Below, piece after piece: positions 26,772-35,890 of a stretch of DNA of 64,000 nt. The notes under the pieces were generated by a model, which was not told where the DNA came from, did not search any database, and was given only the letters and a program-made list of their open reading frames with translations. Every line of letters begins with the position of its first letter. The stretch's first letter is position 1. The position numbers and the translations under genes were made by a program. Source of the stretch: Streptomyces griseus (GTDB lineage: Bacteria; Actinomycetota; Actinomycetes; Streptomycetales; Streptomycetaceae); assembly GCF_001715295.1 (NCBI RefSeq), contig NZ_MDKB01000003.1:575954-639953 (forward strand), written 5' to 3'.

Positions 26772-28256
26772 GTGCGCCCACCGATCCTGCGACGCCTGTT
26801 CAGGCGCGTCGCCTCCGTAGCCGTCTGCGGCCTGCTCGCCCTGCTCGCCGCGCGTCCCGTCACCGCCACCGCCGCTCAGGCGGCCCCGGCCGCCACCGGC
26901 CTGCGGCAGGTGACGGACTTCGGGACCAACCCGGGCAACCTGCAGATGTTCGCGTACACGCCCGACGGCCTGCCGGCGGGCGCGCCCCTCGTCGTGGCGC
27001 TGCACGGCTGCACCCAGACCGCCGACGCGTACTACGCGCACTCGGGCTGGGCCGGGTACGCCGACCTGTGGGGCTTCGACGTCGTCTTCCCGCAGACCAC
27101 GTCGGCGAACAACTCCCTGTCGTGCTTCAGCTGGTTCGACCCGGCCGAGGACACCCGCGGCAGGGGCGAGGCGGCGTCCGTCGTGCAGATGGTCGAGTAC
27201 GCGAAGCAGACGTACGGCTCCGACGGCCGCCGCGTGTACGTCACCGGGCTGTCGGCCGGCGGCGGGATGACCGCCGATCTGCTCGCCGCCTATCCGGACG
27301 TGTTCGCGGGCGGGTCGGTGGCCTCCGGCCTGCCGGCACAGTGCGCCACCAGCCAGGCCGCCGCCTCGGGCTGCCAGACGGGCCCGCAGAAGCTGTCGCC
27401 GTCCCAGTGGGGCGACAAGGTGCGGAACTCCTACCCGGGGTGGACCGGCCCCTGGCCCCGGGTCGCGATCTGGCAGGGCACCTCCGACTACACGGTGTAC
27501 CCGGCCAACGCCACGGCACTGCGCGACCAGTGGACCGACGTCTGGGGCATCGGGCAGACCCCGTCCAGCACGAGCAGCCTGCCCGGCAACACCACGCGGA
27601 GCGTCTACGACGACGCCTCCGGCCGGCCCGCGGTGGAGACGTACACGGTCTCCGGCATGGGTCACGGCCTGCCCGTAGACCCGGGATCGGGTACGGGGCA
27701 GTGCGGTTCGACGGCCGCGTACTTCCTGGACACCATCTGCTCGACCTACCACACGGGCGTGTTCTGGGGTCTGGACCGGGGCACTCCGGGCGGCGGACTA
27801 CCCGCCCCCTCCGGTCTGGCGGTCACCGGGGTCACGTCGGGCAGCGTCTCACTGGCGTGGAACGCGGTCGGGCAGGCGGCGTCGTACAGCGTCTACCGCG
27901 ACGGCGCGAAGGTGGCGTCCACGACCTCCACGGCGTTCACCGACACCGGGCTCGGCGCGGGGACCTCCTACCGCTACACCGTCGCGGCGGCGGACTCCTC
28001 CGGCACGGCCGGGGCCCTCTCCCCCGCCGTGACCGCGACGACGTCGGGCGGGACGGCCCCCGCCGCGTGCTTCACCGCGACGAACTACGCGCACGTGACG
28101 GCGGGGCGGGCCCGGACCTCGGGCGGTTACGTCTACGCGAACGGGTCCGGGCAGAACATGGGCCTGTACAACGTGTTCGTCACCCACACGCTCCGGGAGT
28201 CACCGGCGGGGTACTTCGTGATCGCCGACTCGGGCTGTCAGGCCGGATCCGTGTAG
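26772..28256 (+). CDS. secreted PHB-depolymerase-family esterase with fibronectin III and C-terminal domain
   Basis: 494 residues from a GTG. A signal peptide (about 1-38, two Arg pairs then a hydrophobic core ending TAAQA). Catalytic domain about 45-335: oxyanion VALHGCTQTADAYY, nucleophile VTGLSAGGGM, acid and His regions QGTSDYTVYP and SGMGHGLPVD; type LpqC/esterase_PHB. A fibronectin type III module (about 340-425: APSGLAVTGVTSGSVSLAWNAV) and a 55-residue C-terminal part with TATNYAHVTAGRARTSGGYVYANGS, which resembles a domain that binds short-chain polyesters or chitin in such enzymes. It diverges from the dehydrogenase gene. Confidence 0.9.
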   Translation: MRPPILRRLFRRVASVAVCGLLALLAARPVTATAAQAAPAATGLRQVTDFGTNPGNLQMFAYTPDGLPAGAPLVVALHGCTQTADAYYAHSGWAGYADLWGFDVVFPQTTSANNSLSCFSWFDPAEDTRGRGEAASVVQMVEYAKQTYGSDGRRVYVTGLSAGGGMTADLLAAYPDVFAGGSVASGLPAQCATSQAAASGCQTGPQKLSPSQWGDKVRNSYPGWTGPWPRVAIWQGTSDYTVYPANATALRDQWTDVWGIGQTPSSTSSLPGNTTRSVYDDASGRPAVETYTVSGMGHGLPVDPGSGTGQCGSTAAYFLDTICSTYHTGVFWGLDRGTPGGGLPAPSGLAVTGVTSGSVSLAWNAVGQAASYSVYRDGAKVASTTSTAFTDTGLGAGTSYRYTVAAADSSGTAGALSPAVTATTSGGTAPAACFTATNYAHVTAGRARTSGGYVYANGSGQNMGLYNVFVTHTLRESPAGYFVIADSGCQAGSV

Positions 28257-28756
28257 GCGCCCCGTACGGGCCCGGGCAGCGCGCAGCCGTCCTCCACGGC
28301 GGTGAAGGCCACGGTCTGCTCCCCGTCCGGGCCCGGCGGTGCGTAGTGCCGGGCGTACACCTTCCAGTTCCGCTTGACGAGGGTGCGGAAGGTGACGTCC
28401 CGCTCCGCGTGGCTGGAGACGATCTCCCAGTCGTGCTGGCGAAGCCTCTTCACCGTCGCCTCGAACGCCTCGGCGGCGTACGCGGCCGGAGCCTGGGCCG
28501 TCCACGGGGCGACGCACGCGCGCCACGAGCCCCTGGGCGCGCCCGCGGTGGAGGTGTCACCGCCGCGGAGTCCGGAGGCCTCGGTGACGGACGCTATCTC
28601 CGCGGCCGCCGTCTCCCTGGTATACGGCGCCGAGGGCGACGGCGAGGGCCCCGGCGCGGCCCCGCTCCCGTCGGCGAGGCCGCAGCCCGCCACCGTGGTC
28701 ACCGTCACGAACACACTCGCCACGGCGGTCGCGGCCGCCGTCCCACTTCTGCGCAC
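28238..28756 (-). CDS. small lipoprotein of unknown function
   Basis: About 172 residues. The GTG at 28756 (RRSGTAAATAVAS) gives a lipoprotein signal with lipobox VAGC and has GGAAAG upstream. The mature part has a Pro/Ser linker then a compact region with two Cys (WRACVAPW, EDGCALPG), probably a disulfide. Homologues are annotated only as hypothetical lipoproteins. Its 3' end overlaps the convergent esterase gene by 19 bases. Confidence 0.8.
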   Translation of the reverse strand: MRRSGTAAATAVASVFVTVTTVAGCGLADGSGAAPGPSPSPSAPYTRETAAAEIASVTEASGLRGGDTSTAGAPRGSWRACVAPWTAQAPAAYAAEAFEATVKRLRQHDWEIVSSHAERDVTFRTLVKRNWKVYARHYAPPGPDGEQTVAFTAVEDGCALPGPVRGAYTDPA

Positions 28757-28900
28757 AGCTTGCTTTCCGCCCGGCTCGTCCCTCTCCACGGGCGGGTGCC
28801 CGTGTGCTCCCCGCCGGAGTTTGGCACGGCTCTGACCTGCTGGGAAGCCCTCCCGTCGATGCGGCGGGCCGTCCGCCACGGGAGGGCCGGGAGCGCCCCG

Positions 28901-29075
28901 GTAGAGTGGGCGGGTCGTCATCATGCCCGTACGGGGGGAAGCCGGTGCGAATCCGGCGCTGGCCCGCAGCCGTGAGTCACCACGTAGGTGACGAGCCGGA
29001 ATGCCCCGTGCGTGAGCGTGACCGGCTCGTGCCGCCGGAGCCCCGGCGGCCGGCACCGTCGAGGTATACGGGGCC
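28901..29075 (+). promoter_or_regulatory. cobalamin (AdoCbl) riboswitch
   Basis: The conserved core is plain: GGGGAAGCCGGTGCGAATCC at about 28934-28953 with its closing complement GGC, followed by CTGGCCCGCAGCCGTGA (28959-28975), and the later element GAGCCGGAATGCC (28993-29005). The downstream hairpin 29029-29056 (GTGCCGCCGG / CCGGCGGC..GGCAC) is the likely expression platform. It lies upstream of the five-gene operon starting at 29134, so B12 should switch the operon off. Outer boundaries are approximate. Confidence 0.9.
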
Positions 29076-29133
29076 GGAGCCCGGTGCATCCGTGTGCCCG
29101 TGCCCGGTCCTCGCAGGAGAGGCCCAGCCCGCC

Positions 29134-30390
29134 ATGACCGTACGCCGCCGCGCGGCAGCGCTCGCGATCACCGCCGTGCTCTCAGCCACGGCCGCCGCCC
29201 CCGCGGCGGTCGCCGCGCCGAGCCCGCCCCCGTCCTCCCCGGCGGCCCTTCCGCCCGGCCTCTACGGCACCGCGGACCCGACGTACGACGGCGTGTGGCG
29301 CCAGTCGCTCGCCTTCCTCGCGCAGAAGATCGAACTCGTCACCCCCGCCGCGAAATCGGTGGACTGGCTCGTGGGCCAGCAGTGCGACAGCGGCGCCTTC
29401 CCCTCGTACCGCGACGCGTCCGTCCCCTGTGACGCGAAGACGGTGGCCGACACGAACGCCACCGCCGCCGCCGTCCAGGCGCTGGTCGAGCTGGGCGGGC
29501 GCGGCGAGACCGTCGCCAACGCCGTCAGCTGGCTGAAGTCCGTGCAGAACGAGGACGGCGGCTGGAGCTACAACCCGGGCGGCCCGAGCGACGCCAACTC
29601 CACCGCCGTCGTGATCGGGGCACTGGCCCGTGCCGGCGTACCGGTCGCCGAGGTCACCACCGAGGACGGCAGGACGCCGTACACCGCGCTGCAGACCTTC
29701 GCACTGCCCTGCGGGGGGAAGGACGGCGGTGCGTTCGCGTACCAGCCGGACAAGGACGGCAAGCTCACCGCCAACGCGGACGCCACCGCCGCGGCGGTGC
29801 TCGGCGCGATGGGCAAGGGCATGGCCGCCGGGAACTCCAACGCGGTGAAGGACCCCACCTGTGTGAAGGGCGGCGACCTCACCGCCGAGCAGTCCGCGCA
29901 GAACGGCGCCTCCTACCTCGCGGGCGCGCTCGCCGGGACGGGGCACCTGGACCTGCCGCCGATGCCGGGCGCCGAGGACACCGCGCCGCAGCCGGACTTC
30001 GGCAACACCGCCGACGCGGTCGTCGCGCTGGCGGCGTCGGGCCACAAGGACAAGGCGGCCGGAGCCGTCGCGTACCTGGAGAAGAACGCGAAGACCTGGG
30101 CCGCGGCGGGCGGCCCGGCCGCCACCGCTCAGCTGGTGCTCGCCGCGCACGCGACCGGCAACGACGCCCGTGACTTCGGCGGGGTGGACCTCGTCGGGCA
30201 GCTGAACGCGACGGGTCCCGCGCCCGCCGCCACCGCCGTGCCCTCGCCGACCGCGACGGAGCAGAAGCCGCGGGACACCACCAGCGACGACGGCGGGCTG
30301 GGCGTCTGGTGGCTCGTCGGCATCGGCCTGGCCTTCGGCGCGGGCATCGGCTTCCTGCTCAGCGGGCGCCGGAAGAACCAGCAGCTGTGA
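29134..30390 (+). CDS. membrane-anchored surface protein with alpha-toroid (prenyltransferase/squalene oxidase) repeats, cobalamin-regulated
   Basis: About 418 residues. Signal peptide 1-28; an ectodomain (about 35-350) of paired helices with QW-type loops (GQQCDSGAFPSYRD, VQNEDGGWSYNPGG, NADATAAAVLGAM, FGNTADAVVALAASG), i.e. an alpha6/alpha6 barrel; a Thr/Pro/Ser linker; one C-terminal TM (WWLVGIGLAFGAGIGFLLSG) with basic RRKNQ tail. The same fold forms the B12-binding alpha domain of vertebrate intrinsic factor and transcobalamin. First gene under the cobalamin riboswitch and in one operon with the ECF transporter genes, so it may be the surface receptor for the corrinoid; this is inference. 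Confidence 0.85.
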   Translation: MTVRRRAAALAITAVLSATAAAPAAVAAPSPPPSSPAALPPGLYGTADPTYDGVWRQSLAFLAQKIELVTPAAKSVDWLVGQQCDSGAFPSYRDASVPCDAKTVADTNATAAAVQALVELGGRGETVANAVSWLKSVQNEDGGWSYNPGGPSDANSTAVVIGALARAGVPVAEVTTEDGRTPYTALQTFALPCGGKDGGAFAYQPDKDGKLTANADATAAAVLGAMGKGMAAGNSNAVKDPTCVKGGDLTAEQSAQNGASYLAGALAGTGHLDLPPMPGAEDTAPQPDFGNTADAVVALAASGHKDKAAGAVAYLEKNAKTWAAAGGPAATAQLVLAAHATGNDARDFGGVDLVGQLNATGPAPAATAVPSPTATEQKPRDTTSDDGGLGVWWLVGIGLAFGAGIGFLLSGRRKNQQL

Positions 30391-31097
30391 GGCGTCCACC
30401 GGGTGCGGGGTTCCTGAGCGCCGTCCTGGGCGCCGCCCTCCTGACGGTGCTGGTGGCCGGCAACGCGCAGGCGGCCGGGTACCGCTACTGGTCGTTCTGG
30501 GAGGGCGACGGCGGACGGGGCTGGACGTACGCCACGCAGGGCCCGTCCCTGTTCCGGCCGGACGACGGGTCCGTGCAGGGCTTCCGCTTCTCCGTGAGCC
30601 AGGACTCCGAGGACGCCGCCCGCCCGCGGCACGCCCCGGCCTTCGGGGAGATCTGCGCGGGCACCCCGGCGAAGGACGGCCTCAAGCGGGTCGCGCTGGT
30701 CATCGACGCCGGCACCGCGGCAGACGCCCCGGACGGCGAGCGGCCGCCGGCGCCGCGCACGGCCTGCGCGCGGGTGGCGCCGCAGGCGAGTACGGCCGAG
30801 GCGCTGGCCGCGGTGGCGAAACCGCTGCGGTACGACAGTTCGGCGATGCTCTGCGCGATATCCGGCTATCCCACCTCGGGGTGCGGCGAGCAGGTCGCGG
30901 GCGACTCCGGGTCCGGCGGGTCCGTCGCCGCCTCCGGGGACCCCGGACCCGGGGACGCCGCTTCCGGCCGGGGTTCCGCCTCCGCGCAGCACTCCGGTGA
31001 CGAGGGCGTCGGCCCGTCGGCCGGGGTGCTCACCGGGATCGGTGCGGTGCTCCTCCTCGGCGTCGCCGCAGTGGTGCGGGCCCGCCGCCGCCGATGA
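30387..31097 (+). CDS. SCO2322-family surface protein, DUF4430-like, membrane-anchored
   Basis: About 236 residues, GTGA overlap. Signal peptide to NAQAA, ectodomain about 35-200 starting YRYWSFWEGDGGRGWTYATQGPS and containing four Cys (EICAGT, RTACARV, AMLCAISG, SGCGEQ), a Ser/Gly linker and a C-terminal TM with RARRRR. The YWSFW...GWTY opening resembles the DUF4430/beta domain attached to the alpha-barrel in B12-binding intrinsic factor proteins. Placed between the toroid gene and EcfT, it probably works with the toroid protein outside the membrane. Function is inferred. Confidence 0.85.
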   Translation: MRRPPGAGFLSAVLGAALLTVLVAGNAQAAGYRYWSFWEGDGGRGWTYATQGPSLFRPDDGSVQGFRFSVSQDSEDAARPRHAPAFGEICAGTPAKDGLKRVALVIDAGTAADAPDGERPPAPRTACARVAPQASTAEALAAVAKPLRYDSSAMLCAISGYPTSGCGEQVAGDSGSGGSVAASGDPGPGDAASGRGSASAQHSGDEGVGPSAGVLTGIGAVLLLGVAAVVRARRRR

Positions 31098-32269
31098 CCC
31101 GCTCCACCGGCCCGGCCCGGCCGCACCGCGCGCTGCGCGCACCCGAGGCCACCCGCACCAACGCCCTGCCCGCCGGGGCCTGGTGGCTGTGGGCGCTCGG
31201 CCTCGCCACCGCCGCCTCCCGGACGACCAACCCGCTGCTGCTCGGCCTGCTGGTGGGCGTGGCCGGCTACGTGGTGGCCGCGCGCCGTACGGACGCGCCG
31301 TGGGCCCGTTCGTACGGGGCGTTCGTCAAACTGGGGCTGTTCGTCGTCGGCGTGCGGCTGGTCTTCTCCGTCGTCCTCGGCTCACCGGTGCCGGGTACGC
31401 ACCTCCTGCTCACGCTCCCCGAACTGCCACTGCCCGGCTGGGCGCAGGGCATCCGGATCGGCGGCCGGGTCACTGCCGAGCAGGTGGTCTTCGCCGTGTA
31501 CGACGGGGCGAAGCTGGCCACGCTCCTCATCTGCGTCGGTGCGGCGAACTCCCTGGCCGACCCGGCCCGTCTGCTGAAGTCCCTGCCGGGCGCCCTGTAC
31601 GAGGCGGGGGTCGCGGTCGTCGTCGCGATGACGTTCGCCCCCCACCTGGTCGCCGACGTGCTGCGGCTGCGGACGGCCCGCCGGCTGCGCGGCCGTCCGA
31701 CCGGCGGCATCGGCGCGGTGCTCCGCATCGGTCTGCCGGTGATCGAGGGCGCGCTGGAGCGGTCGGTCGCGGTGGCGGCCTCGATGGACGCCCGCGGGTA
31801 CGGGCGTACGGCCCCGGTGCCGCCCGCCGTCCGGCACACCACGGCCGTCCTGACGCTCGGCGGCCTGCTGGGCGTGTGCGTGGGGACGTACGGTCTGCTG
31901 GCGGCGCGAGGGGCGCTGTACGGGCTGCCGCTGCTGCTGGCGGGCCTGGCCGCGGCCCTGGCCGGGCTCAGGCTGGGCGGCCGCCGCTCGGTCCGCACCC
32001 GCTACCGCCCCGACCGGTGGGGGGCACGCGCCTGGCTCGTCGCGGGCTCGGGGGTGGCCGTCGCGGCGGCGATGATCCGGGCGGCCGGTGTCGACCCGGG
32101 GGCCCTGCACCCGGGAGTGGTGCCGCTGACCGCGCCCGTGCTGCCGCTCTGGCCGGCCGCCGCGGTGCTGGTCGGGCTGCTGCCCGCCGCGGTGGCACCC
32201 GTGCCCGCCGCCCCTTCCCTCCCGCCTTCCACTCCCGCTCCCACATCCGCTTCCGAGGAGACCACGTGA
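31094..32269 (+). CDS. ecfT: ECF transporter transmembrane (T) component
   Basis: 391 residues, ATGA overlap with the previous gene. About six to seven membrane helices; the cytoplasmic coupling region contains ARRLRGRPTGG and SMDARGYGRT, the Ala-Arg-Gly type motifs through which EcfT contacts the two ATPase domains. An additional hydrophobic C-terminal region (WLVAGSGVAVAAAMI, LPLWPAAAVLVGLLPAAVA) makes it longer than typical EcfT (~265), which is usual in the CbrU-like actinobacterial form. Confidence 0.88.
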   Translation: MTRSTGPARPHRALRAPEATRTNALPAGAWWLWALGLATAASRTTNPLLLGLLVGVAGYVVAARRTDAPWARSYGAFVKLGLFVVGVRLVFSVVLGSPVPGTHLLLTLPELPLPGWAQGIRIGGRVTAEQVVFAVYDGAKLATLLICVGAANSLADPARLLKSLPGALYEAGVAVVVAMTFAPHLVADVLRLRTARRLRGRPTGGIGAVLRIGLPVIEGALERSVAVAASMDARGYGRTAPVPPAVRHTTAVLTLGGLLGVCVGTYGLLAARGALYGLPLLLAGLAAALAGLRLGGRRSVRTRYRPDRWGARAWLVAGSGVAVAAAMIRAAGVDPGALHPGVVPLTAPVLPLWPAAAVLVGLLPAAVAPVPAAPSLPPSTPAPTSASEETT

Positions 32270-33975
32270 TCCGGTTCGAACAGGTCTCCGTGCAGTACGA
32301 GGGCGCCGCCCGCCGCACCCTGTCCGGGGTCGACCTCACGGTTCCCGAGGGCGAGCTCGTCCTCGTCGTCGGCCCGTCCGGAGTCGGCAAGTCGACTCTG
32401 CTGAACGCCGTCTCCGGCCTCGTGCCGCACTTCACCGGCGGCCTGCTGACCGGCAGGGTCACCGTCGACGGCCGGGACACCCGCACCCACAGACCGCGCG
32501 AACTCGCCGATCTCGTCGGCACGGTGGGCCAGGACCCGCTCTCCCACTTCGTCACGGACACCGTCGAGGACGAACTCGCCTACGGTATGGAGTCGCTGGG
32601 TCTCGCCCCCGACGTGATGCGGCGGCGCGTCGAGGAGACGCTGGACCTGCTGGGTCTGGCCGGGCTGCGGGACCGGCCGATCTCCACGCTCTCCGGTGGC
32701 CAGCAGCAGCGCGTCGCGATCGGCTCGGTCCTCACCCCGCACCCCAAGGTCCTGGTCCTCGACGAGCCGACGTCCGCCCTGGACCCGGCCGCGGCCGAGG
32801 ATGTGCTGGCGGTGCTCCAGCGACTGGTGCACGACCTGGGCACCACCGTGCTCATGGCCGAGCACCGGCTGGAGCGGGTGGTGCAGTACGCCGATCAGGT
32901 CCTCCTGCTCCCGTCGCCCGGCGCCGCCCCGGTGATGGGCACGCCGGCGGACGTCATGGCGCTGTCGCCCGTCCGCCCGCCGGTGGTGGCCCTGGGCCGC
33001 CTGGCGGGCTGGGAGCCCCTGCCGCTGTCGGTACGGGACGCCCGGCGCCGGGCGGGAGACCTCCGCGAACGCCTGGCCGGGACCGAGCCGCCCGCCCGGG
33101 AGCCGTCGGCGGGCGCCCTCGCCCCGCTCCCCGCTCCCGCAGCCGCCCGTCCCGGCCTGCTCGGCCGGCTCTTCGGCCGCCGCCCGGCCGCGGCCGAGCC
33201 GGTGCCGGCGGACGGTGTCGTGGCCCGGACGGAGGGGCTCGGGGTGCGGCGCGGCCGGGTGGAGGCGCTGCGCGGGGTGACGCTGTCCGTCGCGCCGGGC
33301 GAGATCGTGGCCCTGATGGGCCGTAACGGGGCCGGTAAGTCCACCCTGCTGACGGCTCTCGTCGGGATGGTCGAGCCGGCCACCGGCTCCGTCCTGGTCG
33401 GCGGCCTGCAACCGTCGCGTACGCCGCCGCGCACCATGGTGCGCCGGGTCGGGCTCGTACCGCAGGAGCCCCGCGACCTGCTGTACGCGGAGACGGTCGC
33501 CGCCGAGTGCGCGGCGGCCGACGCCGACGCGGGGGTCCCGGCGGGCAGGTGCCGGGCCCTGGCCGGGGAACTGCTCCCCGGCGTGCCGGACGGCATCCAC
33601 CCCCGCGACCTCTCCGAGGGCCAGCGCCTCGCCCTGGCCCTCGCCGTGGTGCTCACCGCCCAGCCCCCGCTGCTGCTGCTGGACGAGCCGACGCGCGGTC
33701 TCGACTACGCGGCGAAGGCACGGCTCGTCGGTGTGCTGCGGCGGCTGGCGGCCGAGGGCCGTGCCGTCGTCCTGGCCACGCACGATGTGGAACTGGCGGC
33801 GGAACTGGCCCACCGGGTGGTGATCCTCGCCGACGGCGAGGTCGTCGCCGACGGCCCGACCCGTCAGGTCGTGGTCTCCTCCCCCGCGTTCGCCCCGCAG
33901 ACGGCGAAGATCCTCGCACCGCAGGGGTGGCTGACCGTGGGACAGGTGCGCGACGCCCTGGAGGTGCCCGCGTGA
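32266..33975 (+). CDS. ecfA: ECF transporter ATPase, fused A and A' components
   Basis: About 569 residues with two ABC domains in one chain. Domain 1 (1-245): Walker A GPSGVGKST, signature LSGGQQQRVAIGSVL, Walker B VLVLDEPTSALD. An Ala/Pro/Arg linker (about 265-315) carries domain 2: Walker A GRNGAGKST, signature LSEGQRLALALAVVL, Walker B LLLLDEPTRGLD. Both sites keep all catalytic residues. Energy-coupling factor ATPases usually come as two genes (ecfA, ecfA'); here they are one gene of a B12-regulated operon. Confidence 0.92.
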   Translation: MIRFEQVSVQYEGAARRTLSGVDLTVPEGELVLVVGPSGVGKSTLLNAVSGLVPHFTGGLLTGRVTVDGRDTRTHRPRELADLVGTVGQDPLSHFVTDTVEDELAYGMESLGLAPDVMRRRVEETLDLLGLAGLRDRPISTLSGGQQQRVAIGSVLTPHPKVLVLDEPTSALDPAAAEDVLAVLQRLVHDLGTTVLMAEHRLERVVQYADQVLLLPSPGAAPVMGTPADVMALSPVRPPVVALGRLAGWEPLPLSVRDARRRAGDLRERLAGTEPPAREPSAGALAPLPAPAAARPGLLGRLFGRRPAAAEPVPADGVVARTEGLGVRRGRVEALRGVTLSVAPGEIVALMGRNGAGKSTLLTALVGMVEPATGSVLVGGLQPSRTPPRTMVRRVGLVPQEPRDLLYAETVAAECAAADADAGVPAGRCRALAGELLPGVPDGIHPRDLSEGQRLALALAVVLTAQPPLLLLDEPTRGLDYAAKARLVGVLRRLAAEGRAVVLATHDVELAAELAHRVVILADGEVVADGPTRQVVVSSPAFAPQTAKILAPQGWLTVGQVRDALEVPA

Positions 33976-34838
33976 CGGCCCGGCCCGTGCGCCTCGGCCC
34001 CCGGGCCGTCGCCGCGCTCGTCCTGGTCGGCGTGGTCGGTGTGCTCTCCTTCGGCTGGCCGCTGCTGGCCGACGCCGACTTCGGCCGCGATCACGCCCAG
34101 GACGCGCCGTGGCTGTTCGCCGTCCTCCTCGTGCTCCTCGTCGGGGTGGTCGTCGCGACGATCGCCGATGCGGGCCTGGACGCGAAGGCCGTGGCCATGC
34201 TGGGCGTCCTCGCCGCAGTCGGCGCCGCACTGCGCCCGCTGGGCGCGGGGACGGCCGGTCTGGAACCGATGTTCTTCCTGATGGTCCTCAGCGGCCGGGT
34301 CCTGGGGCCGGGATTCGGCTTCGTGCTCGGCGCGGTGACGATGTCGGCATCGGCGCTCCTCACGGGCGGCGTGGGGCCGTGGATGCCGTTCCAGATGCTG
34401 TCGATGGGCTGGTTCACCATGGGCGCCGGGCTGCTCCCCGGTGCGCAGAGGCTGCGCGGCCGGGGGGAACTGATGATGCTCGGGGCGTACGGCTTCGTGG
34501 CCGCGTTCGCGTACGGCACGGTGATGAACCTCTACGGCTGGACGTTCGTGCCGGGGCAGGGCTCCGGGATCTCCTTCGTGGCGGGTGACCCGCTGCACGA
34601 GAACCTGGTCCGCTTCCTGGCGTACTGCGCGACCACCTCGCTCGGCTGGGACCTGGGCCGTGCCGTCCTCACCGTGGTCCTGACGTTCGCCGTCGCCCCG
34701 ACGCTGCTGAGGGCGCTGCGGCGGGCCACCCGCCGTGCCGCCTTCGACGCCCGGGCCACCTTCGAGGCCCCCGCGGACGCCCCGGCGACCGGCCCTGAAG
34801 CCCTTGCGGACACCTCGGAGGCCTCCGGGGCCCGTTGA
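33972..34838 (+). CDS. ECF transporter substrate-binding (S) component, probably for a corrinoid or precursor
   Basis: About 288 residues with GTGA overlap. About six to seven membrane helices; conserved stretches MFFLMVLSGRVLGPGFGFVLGAVTMSASALLTGGVGPWMPFQMLSMGW and an MNLYGW segment are those of the actinobacterial S component that is found with B12 riboswitches (CblT type). A 50-residue Ala/Thr-rich cytoplasmic tail follows. Specificity is inferred from the riboswitch, not from ligand residues. Last gene of the operon. Confidence 0.85.
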   Translation: MTARPVRLGPRAVAALVLVGVVGVLSFGWPLLADADFGRDHAQDAPWLFAVLLVLLVGVVVATIADAGLDAKAVAMLGVLAAVGAALRPLGAGTAGLEPMFFLMVLSGRVLGPGFGFVLGAVTMSASALLTGGVGPWMPFQMLSMGWFTMGAGLLPGAQRLRGRGELMMLGAYGFVAAFAYGTVMNLYGWTFVPGQGSGISFVAGDPLHENLVRFLAYCATTSLGWDLGRAVLTVVLTFAVAPTLLRALRRATRRAAFDARATFEAPADAPATGPEALADTSEASGAR

Positions 34839-34927
34839 CGCCCCGACCGGTCACCGGCCCGACCGGTCACCGGCCCTTCCGGTACCCGGCCCGCCGGAGG
34901 CCCCGGGGCGCGGGGATCATGGGGCGC

Positions 34928-35890
34928 ATGCACGCCCTGCTCTCCGCTTTCGCCCCCATCTGGACGCTGACCGCCGTCGGTTACGCGACCGGGCGCGGGC
35001 GGCTGCTGGGGGAGCAGGCGGAGGCGGTGCTCGGCCGGCTGGTCTTCCACGTGGCCATGCCCGCGGCCCTGTTCATGATGGTTTCCCGGGCGGACCTGCG
35101 CTCCTTCGTGAATCCTTCGCTGCTCGCGTTCGGCGCCGGATCGGTCCTCGTCTCGGTGGTGGGACTGCTGGTGGTCCGGCGCTTCTTCGGCCGCAAGAGG
35201 GCTGACGGGGCGATCGGATCGATGGCCTCGGGGTATGTGAACTCCGCCAACCTCGGTGTCCCCGTCGCCGTCCAGGTCCTCGGCGACGCGTCGTTCGTCG
35301 CCCAGGTCATCCTGTTCCAGGTGCTGGTCATGTCGCCGGTGATCCTGACCCTGCTGGACACCGGCACGGACCGGGGGCGCCCGCACCGGTGGGTGGGGCT
35401 GCGCCGCACGCTGACCATGCCGGTCCGCAACCCCGTGATCCTCGCCTCCCTGCTGGGGGTCGCCGTCTCGGCGGCCGGACTGCGGCTGCCCGCCGCCCTC
35501 GGCCGTACCTGCGACCTGCTGGGCGCCGCCGCCGTGCCGACGGCCCTGATCGCACTCGGCCTGTCGCTGCACCGGAGCCCGGACCCGGACGGGACGGTCT
35601 CCGCGCCGGGCAGCCGTGCGGAGCTGGGTGCGGTGGTCGCCCTGAAGACCCTGGTGCACCCGGCCGTCGTCTACGCCGTCGGTGGCCCCCTGCTCATGGA
35701 CCTGCCCGGACACCAGCTCCTGGCGGTGGTCCTGTGCTCGGCGCTGCCGACCGCCCAGAACGCGTTCCTCTACGCCCGCGAGTACGGCCTGGACACCACG
35801 CTCGCCCGCGACTCCGTGGTGGCGTCCACGGTCGTGTCACTGGTCACGCTGTCCGTGGCCGCCTGGGCCCTGGGCCCCTCCCCGGGCTGA
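34928..35890 (+). CDS. AEC family (auxin efflux carrier-like) transporter
   Basis: About 320 residues and ten predicted helices, with APIWTLTAVGYATGRGRLLG at the N-terminus and GYVNSANLGVPVAVQVLGDA and SALPTAQNAFLYAREYG, the two Asn-containing crossover motifs of this family. Substrate unknown (carboxylates in relatives). Starts at ATG 34928; an ATG at 34919 is in frame. Two tandem copies of a 17-bp GACCGGTCACCGGCCC-type repeat sit just upstream (about 34849-34882). Confidence 0.88.
   Translation: MHALLSAFAPIWTLTAVGYATGRGRLLGEQAEAVLGRLVFHVAMPAALFMMVSRADLRSFVNPSLLAFGAGSVLVSVVGLLVVRRFFGRKRADGAIGSMASGYVNSANLGVPVAVQVLGDASFVAQVILFQVLVMSPVILTLLDTGTDRGRPHRWVGLRRTLTMPVRNPVILASLLGVAVSAAGLRLPAALGRTCDLLGAAAVPTALIALGLSLHRSPDPDGTVSAPGSRAELGAVVALKTLVHPAVVYAVGGPLLMDLPGHQLLAVVLCSALPTAQNAFLYAREYGLDTTLARDSVVASTVVSLVTLSVAAWALGPSPG

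Follow-up and report, generated by a model that had tools for sequence, protein, structure and literature searches.

The window analysed here is a stretch of 64,000 nucleotides of Streptomyces griseus (NCBI RefSeq assembly GCF_001715295.1, contig NZ_MDKB01000003.1, positions 575,954 to 639,953), and the genome it belongs to measures 6.87 Mb, assembled in 16 contigs. It contains a cobalamin riboswitch followed by five genes, which encode in order a toroid protein (P0001), a second anchored protein (P0002), and the EcfT, fused EcfA-A' and EcfS components of an energy-coupling factor (ECF) importer. The four junctions between these genes are 4-base overlaps, GTGA, ATGA, GTGA and GTGA. P0001 and P0002 are discussed below as candidate halves of a corrinoid receptor, and the features of the locus are as follows.

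28935..29006, + strand: cobalamin riboswitch aptamer (Rfam RF00174, model positions 45-169; 40 bits, gathering threshold 31.5, E 1.2e-6)
29134..30390, + strand: P0001, SCO2321 family, predicted secreted, C-terminally anchored alpha/alpha toroid, circularly permuted (NF053823, 563.9 bits; AlphaFold; swapped order of hidden Markov model (HMM) matches)
29284..29847, + strand: toroid segment, the C-terminal part in unpermuted relatives (residues 51-238, HMM 136-325, E 1.1e-32)
29881..30213, + strand: toroid segment, the N-terminal part in unpermuted relatives (residues 250-360, HMM 27-126, E 7.4e-20)
30304..30360, + strand: C-terminal hydrophobic anchor of P0001 (residues 391-409)
30387..31097, + strand: P0002, SCO2322 family, predicted secreted, C-terminally anchored, permuted DUF4430/transcobalamin-beta-like domain (NF040672, 225.1 bits)
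30468..30593, + strand: beta segment YRYWSFW..GWTY..DGSVQGFRF, the C-terminal half in unpermuted relatives (HMM 71-112, E 4.1e-12)
30684..30896, + strand: beta segment KRVALVIDAG..AMLCAISGYPTSGC, the N-terminal half in unpermuted relatives (HMM 2-72, E 2.3e-5)
31020..31076, + strand: C-terminal hydrophobic anchor of P0002 (residues 212-230)
31094..32269, + strand: EcfT, CbiQ-like membrane component (PF02361 weak, 17 bits against a cut-off of 25; matches EcfT of the related locus L093)
32266..33975, + strand: fused EcfA-EcfA' ATPase (two ABC_tran stretches, 2e-56; ECF_ATPase models, cbiO)
33972..34838, + strand: EcfS, CbrT-like substrate-binding membrane component (profile of 46 orthologues to 6fnp_A, E 1.3e-11)

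An earlier note on this DNA, made from its letters alone, had placed a riboswitch core at 28934-29005, and the covariance model scores above its curated cut-off at practically the same place. The note had also read five overlapping genes, a toroidal and a YWSFW...GWTY ectodomain each with a transmembrane (TM) anchor, and the three kinds of ECF component, and all of these were recovered: the overlaps are real, AlphaFold predicts a toroid for P0001, and both proteins have a C-terminal hydrophobic segment. EcfT, two EcfA domains and an S component share the operon, which identifies an ECF module, although the window's T and S proteins fall under the Pfam cut-offs, EcfS just below that of ECF_trnsprt (28.9 against 30.7). 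The equivalents in L093 exceed these cut-offs, with EcfT reaching 65.3 bits to PF02361. The note had also remarked that S components of the CblT type go with B12 riboswitches; the S component of the operon is indeed a relative of a B12 transporter, the match itself being to CbrT. When the profile of the 46 EcfS orthologues was searched against the PDB up to E 10, 6fnp_A was the one match obtained. In the passages available of PMC5997447, 6FNP is ECF-CbrT, which transports cobalamin and cobinamide and, in purified form, takes up cobalamin in proteoliposomes. Judged from this profile match the S component is a relative of CbrT, and this evidence on the substrate is independent of the riboswitch.

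RF00174 matches the genome of the window five times, the operon leader being one of the five. Among 80 Streptomyces loci fetched via an SCO2322 relative, the five-gene order is the same in 70, and of the other ten, nine are short and lie at contig ends and one is odd. Of 78 Streptomyces loci, 42 have a strict riboswitch-core motif in the 450 nt upstream, against a background of one same-strand match in the remaining 882 kb, and the Rfam riboswitch itself is present in 6 of 12 such loci scanned. Since gene order is kept and the motif is enriched upstream, the arrangement of this operon is not due to chance. Across all related regions scanned, an upstream riboswitch (RF00174, RF01482 or RF01689) occurs in 33 of 58, namely 11/19, 5/9, 11/18 (4/9 and 7/9) and 6/12, a count that leaves out one distant opposite-strand match in L216; one of 20 regions, L055, was left out of the RNA-family scan. 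The set of nine with five positives had been picked by DUF4430 matches, and of its four regions with no riboswitch, L086 begins inside the operon and L089-L091 are without the full module. In L093 and L097 the riboswitch lies about 3 kb upstream.

The relatives are widely distributed. Across the phylum, the SCO2322 model matched 44 of 296 genomes and exceeded its curated cut-off in 10, and in a class sample of 345 genomes SCO2322_fam matched 144 (118 above cut-off) and SCO2321_fam 164 (32 above cut-off). The SCO2321 model also fires in 3 of 14 control genomes, never above cut-off, and weak SCO2321 matches therefore probably include unrelated toroids. Other actinobacterial classes also have loci that combine toroid, beta protein, EcfT, EcfA-A' and EcfS. 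A genuine DUF4430 gene stands just before EcfT or the ATPase, with a toroid after EcfS, in six loci (L093, L094, L097, L098, L099 and L100), and the row in L088 runs riboswitch, DUF4430, toroid, SCO2322-like protein, EcfT and EcfA. L040 and L044 each encode one protein made up of toroid, beta domain and CWB2 cell-wall-binding repeats; this toroid-first single chain is confined to these two relatives, the window having two genes. L234 and L239 have an open frame in which a beta match is followed by a toroid match. Toroids of other relatives bear SLH repeats or LPxTG motifs.

P0001 belongs to SCO2321_fam and P0002 to SCO2322_fam, both listed by NCBIfam with no function annotation. The closest relatives have 87% identity to P0001 and 86% to P0002, and jointly they are all Streptomyces records except one filed as [Kitasatospora]. 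P0001 also has a hydrophobic, signal-like segment at its N-terminus, and the toroids of its family have conserved cysteines. The AlphaFold model is a helical toroid (predicted local distance difference test (pLDDT) 83.9, predicted template modelling score (pTM) 0.79; core blocks mostly above 90), built on an alignment that left out L176, whose frame ran on, and, as for P0002, L140, L164, L180 and their near-copies. In VIA structure comparison, Z was 18.8-24.1 among the matches listed, which are largely toroid folds, and P0001 was thereby assigned to the alpha/alpha toroids; transcobalamin is not among these 50 listed matches, which carries no weight either way. Pfam models of prenyltransferase/squalene-cyclase toroids match weakly, below cut-off. 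Going by the model, the fold of P0001 is right for the alpha domain of intrinsic factor, though not specific to that domain.

P0002, which matches no Pfam family, has a signal-like N-terminal segment and basic residues after its C-terminal hydrophobic segment, and the GPS-CTERM model resembles its C-terminus (window 31011-31094) below cut-off, at 18.6 bits against 28. Relatives from other classes carry the halves of this domain in the opposite order. Against a profile of 23 such unpermuted beta domains, the Streptomyces proteins and L015 align as two separate pieces whose order is swapped, in 7 of 7 rows, a count of the rows in the right orientation from which three more loci of the Streptomyces set were left out. 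The unpermuted profile was aligned by hhalign with 20 genuine actinobacterial DUF4430 segments over 95 columns with a probability of 95.2 (E 2.7e-8), whereas ten reversed or column-shuffled controls gave 1.8 or less, and a second build from 18 of the 20 segments gave 90.8 (E 1.2e-6). The DUF4430 profile also matches the beta domain of the L044 fusion, and against the PDB it found transcobalamin-1 best (E 8.9e-4), followed by 3u7z, putatively metal-binding (9.3e-4), and transcobalamin-2 (8e-3). A 2014 paper, in the part available (PMC4350170), likewise places DUF4430 in the C-terminal region of transcobalamins. P0002 is thus connected to DUF4430 through intermediate relatives, and because the chain runs from swapped halves to the unpermuted profile, to DUF4430 and to transcobalamin, a circularly permuted DUF4430/SLBB domain is the best reading of SCO2322.

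The toroid is rearranged in the same manner. When P0001 is compared with a profile of 17 unpermuted toroids, profile positions 136-325 match ahead of positions 27-126, and profile-profile comparison by hhalign, built from 16 of these 17 toroids and 6 from DUF4430 loci, found this half offset again for the longer segment. We classified the order of both proteins in 80 fetched regions and the window. Both were resolved in 39 regions, of which 28 are unpermuted in both proteins, 11 are permuted in both (the window included) and none is mixed; L055 and L086 are one place, so that there are 27 distinct unpermuted pairs. Independent of profile construction are 13 unpermuted pairs (12 when L086 is left out) and the 11 permuted pairs, which come from ten families (f1, f71, f72, f81, f91, f93, f95, f96, f98 and f101). 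L247 was called unpermuted automatically and is permuted on inspection; L228 (beta) and L218 and L095 (toroid) are unclear. In the 80 Streptomyces loci the beta domain is permuted throughout (76 automatically, and 4 on inspection, of which one had been called unpermuted and three unclear), and the toroid is permuted in 79 and unclear in one. As the order of the profile matches shows, Streptomyces and nine other families have circularly permuted versions of both halves, and within a locus the two proteins always share one state, as would be expected of partners that form a single binding site. For the beta domain the ancestral order is probably the unpermuted one, given that DUF4430 has it too.

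In a tree of 56 EcfS rows, the permuted label needs 6 changes (5-7 in bootstraps), while shuffled labels need 18.4 on average and none of 500 shuffles was as low. Well-supported branches force at least 2 changes, and the permuted L220 is nested with the unpermuted L221, L224 and L230 at 99/96; the tree is weak at deep nodes and one row, L251, is very long. Permuted rows are clustered and do not form one clade, thus a single origin of the permuted state was not shown, and on this tree the pair would either have changed more than once or have moved as a unit by transfer. We also considered permutation as a swap of anchors, and rejected it because anchor type does not follow permutation: of 40 unpermuted toroid open reading frames (ORFs), 11 have a TM anchor, 5 LPxTG, 3 CWB2, 1 SLH and 20 were scored anchorless, and of 13 permuted ones 1 has TM, 4 have LPxTG and 8 are anchorless. 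The TM rule needs two basic residues behind the segment, and L093, L099 and L243, with hydrophobic ends, were scored as having none. With the anchor swap unsupported, the reason for the paired permutation would lie in binding or docking geometry. We tentatively suggest, as a possibility that we hold with more doubt than confidence, that two separately encoded halves of one vitamin receptor underwent permutation jointly and are altered or transferred as a unit since they share a ligand and docking to the importer. This would be a coupled topological rewiring of the interface between the two proteins and their ligand, with both states preserved in living relatives.

Taking these results together, comparison of sequences makes it likely that the operon encodes a CbrT-like ECF importer together with a corrinoid receptor that supplies it, the receptor being in two parts and anchored in the envelope. 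The leader RNA would permit expression of the operon at low adenosylcobalamin. The tethered toroid of P0001 and the beta domain of P0002 would then act as receptor halves with the corrinoid held between them, as in the alpha and beta domains of transcobalamin, and would hand it to EcfS, and EcfS-T-A-A' with its CbrT-related S component would carry the corrinoid, B12 or a precursor, across the membrane. The proposal of the earlier note, that the two ectodomains are the halves of an intrinsic-factor-like pair, is partly sustained, by toroid and DUF4430 homology through relatives, although the permutation of both proteins had been missed.

Several observations weigh against this receptor. P0001 is nearer to terpene cyclases than to transcobalamin: squalene-hopene and drimenyl diphosphate cyclases come first among its PDB neighbours by structure and by sequence, and human transcobalamin (2bb5_A) stands at rank 46 with E 1e-3. 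Structure prediction, which the earlier note had proposed for both proteins, gave a confident toroid for P0001, whereas the model of P0002 is poor (pLDDT 59.3) with no PDB match. Its alignment is narrow, consisting of the window and 69 Streptomyces sequences (L112, whose frame ran on, was left out), and because of these few 70 sequences the missing fold match is no evidence against a beta-grasp. Pfam DUF4430 is matched neither by P0002, nor by ten relatives, nor anywhere in the genome of the window; nine of the ten relatives are unpermuted, thus divergence and not permutation alone hides the domain. Searched by itself against the PDB, the unpermuted beta profile missed transcobalamin and hit only antibodies, with E 0.14 or worse. 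No riboswitch reached the gathering threshold upstream of 25 of the 58 related regions scanned, and for 15 of the 28 unpermuted pairs the state is fixed by construction, the profiles having been built from these loci. Moreover, the four other RF00174 loci of the genome include L001, which adjoins a Peripla_BP_2 binding-protein gene, and L002, L003 and L004 at cobD/cobQ, ribonucleotide reductase and cobG/cobN, respectively (names read from translations), so the need for this operon is not obvious. Lastly, the beta protein stands with ECF genes and no adjoining toroid in 15 permuted and 6 unpermuted regions, some of them cut at contig ends, and the toroid may not always be needed.

Such toroid-less loci would fit an ECF module that imports B12 alone, with toroid and beta protein in another envelope role such as corrinoid storage, protection or display to other cells. 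Purified ECF-CbrT works by itself in proteoliposomes, according to the available passages of PMC5997447, and the wall anchors on some toroids (LPxTG, CWB2, SLH) may keep these off the membrane. However, gene order and co-occurrence with ECF genes hold across classes, and by the TM rule a C-terminal TM segment is present in the beta protein for 29 of its 40 unpermuted ORFs and for 24 of the 27 permuted ones, and we regard this separation of roles as unlikely. A more serious alternative, though still one we would not favour, concerns the substrate, which could be another corrinoid or a precursor (cobinamide, alpha-ribazole or another cobamide) instead of B12. CbrT accepts cobinamide as well as cobalamin, as stated in the same passages of PMC5997447, and with cob-like genes near riboswitches in the genome precursor salvage would make sense; on the other side, CbrT is the sole solved chain that the S component profile matches, and a two-sided clamp would fit a large corrinoid.

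That the toroid is a terpene-cyclase-like enzyme sitting in the operon by accident, as its top structure and sequence neighbours might suggest, seems to us hardly credible. Squalene-hopene-type cyclases have the acid catalytic motif DXDD, which is not kept in P0001: residues 105-108 at the aligned site read ADTN, and D106 and N108 are invariant in 76 sequences. The signal-like N-terminus and conserved cysteines, the conserved linkage to ECF genes and riboswitch, and the fusion of toroid to beta domain in L040 and L044 also speak against an enzyme. Only slightly less improbable is that the permutations are alignment artefacts; toroids do consist of similar hairpins, and the second beta match of the window protein is weak (2.3e-5), yet the two toroid segments match at non-equivalent profile positions with E 1.1e-32 and 7.4e-20, hhalign gives the same half offset for the longer one, and a tail motif ending in VC behind the unpermuted beta domain can be recognised by eye in the permuted linker. 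The agreement of both genes in 39 of 39 regions further argues against artefacts. The two-part receptor feeding the CbrT-like importer thus remains the reading that we prefer.

The earlier note knew of no description of such an arrangement, which proved incomplete. Burroughs, Balaji, Iyer and Aravind (2007, PMC1796856), in the passages available, described the SLBB superfamily with bacterial toroid and transcobalamin-like fusions bearing Gram-positive anchors, in operons with a CbiO-like ATPase and a CbiQ-like membrane protein, and predicted B12 scavenging and a transfer to animals, so the general concept is not new. Their systems were found in low-GC Gram-positives, planctomycetes and less often euryarchaea, and those passages name no actinobacterial member of the transcobalamin clade and mention neither SCO2321/SCO2322 nor permutation nor a riboswitch. 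SCO2321-SCO2325 are listed in the part available of PMC9237094, SCO2321 twice, and circular permutation of beta-grasp is known for the UFD domain of E1 enzymes, though not in the SLBB passages of that source (PMC1949818, as far as available). In the open literature we found no earlier description of the SCO2321/SCO2322 assignment, the CbrT link or the concerted permutation. What is new is that the function-less SCO2321 and SCO2322, going by the comparisons above, are probably the two halves of such a receptor; the CbrT link of the putative S component, the joint permutation and the single-chain fusions of toroid, beta domain and wall repeats in relatives, as read from their sequences, are new as well.

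Like transcobalamin and intrinsic factor, the proteins of the window combine a toroid with an SLBB/DUF4430-type domain, are secreted, have conserved cysteines and would clamp one corrinoid; unlike these carriers, they are two separate anchored proteins, permuted with respect to bacterial relatives and linked to ECF genes, with corrinoid binding being predicted. ECF-CbrT of Lactobacillus delbrueckii has a homologous S component and an ECF energising module, which in the available passages of PMC5997447 is common to several S components, whereas here T, A-A' and S share an operon with the surface pair. BtuFCD also imports B12 and uses the periplasmic binding protein BtuF, while Pfam finds no Peripla_BP_2-type protein among the five genes of the operon. 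Our results give a testable function to SCO2321, SCO2322 and the adjoining ECF module, extend the bacterial side of animal B12 carriers to Actinobacteria, and offer a natural experiment of a rare kind, the concerted circular permutation of two partner proteins. Since the Pfam DUF4430 model misses this branch, permuted or not, its B12 systems are probably under-annotated.

Some further observations concern the relatives and neighbours. In L212 (7549-11456) and L213 (4244-8322), from two genomes of family f92, an RF01482 adenosylcobalamin riboswitch is followed by a permuted SCO2322-like protein and ECF genes with no adjoining toroid and, by the TM rule, no C-terminal anchor, and G317 has no SCO2321 match; sizes listed for this family are 1.3-2.2 Mb, and we would guess that the two may be streamlined aquatic actinobacteria. 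L051 has a doubled toroid/beta cassette and L233 an extra beta gene, each with four cobalamin riboswitches within 18 kb. Two genomes of the genus of the window encode a short genuine DUF4430 protein with GTWYASFDD (L086:6436-7137, also in L055, and L087:8595-9278), one of which stands after an unpermuted toroid ending in LPLTG. Several DUF4430 matches lie in open frames of 1839-1944 codons (G142:C1:1276715-1277683, G249:C13:116445-117065 and G054:C51:41423-42358). A stretch guessed at L235:3000-3900 matched no family. In the Streptomyces locus L112 (5938-9354) the SCO2322 frame runs stop-less far into the next genes, either a true fusion or a frameshift. Next to the operon in the window, the neighbours at 26772-28256, 28238-28768 and 34835-35890 resemble, by reading only, a secreted esterase/depolymerase, a divergent lipoprotein and an AEC-type permease, respectively.

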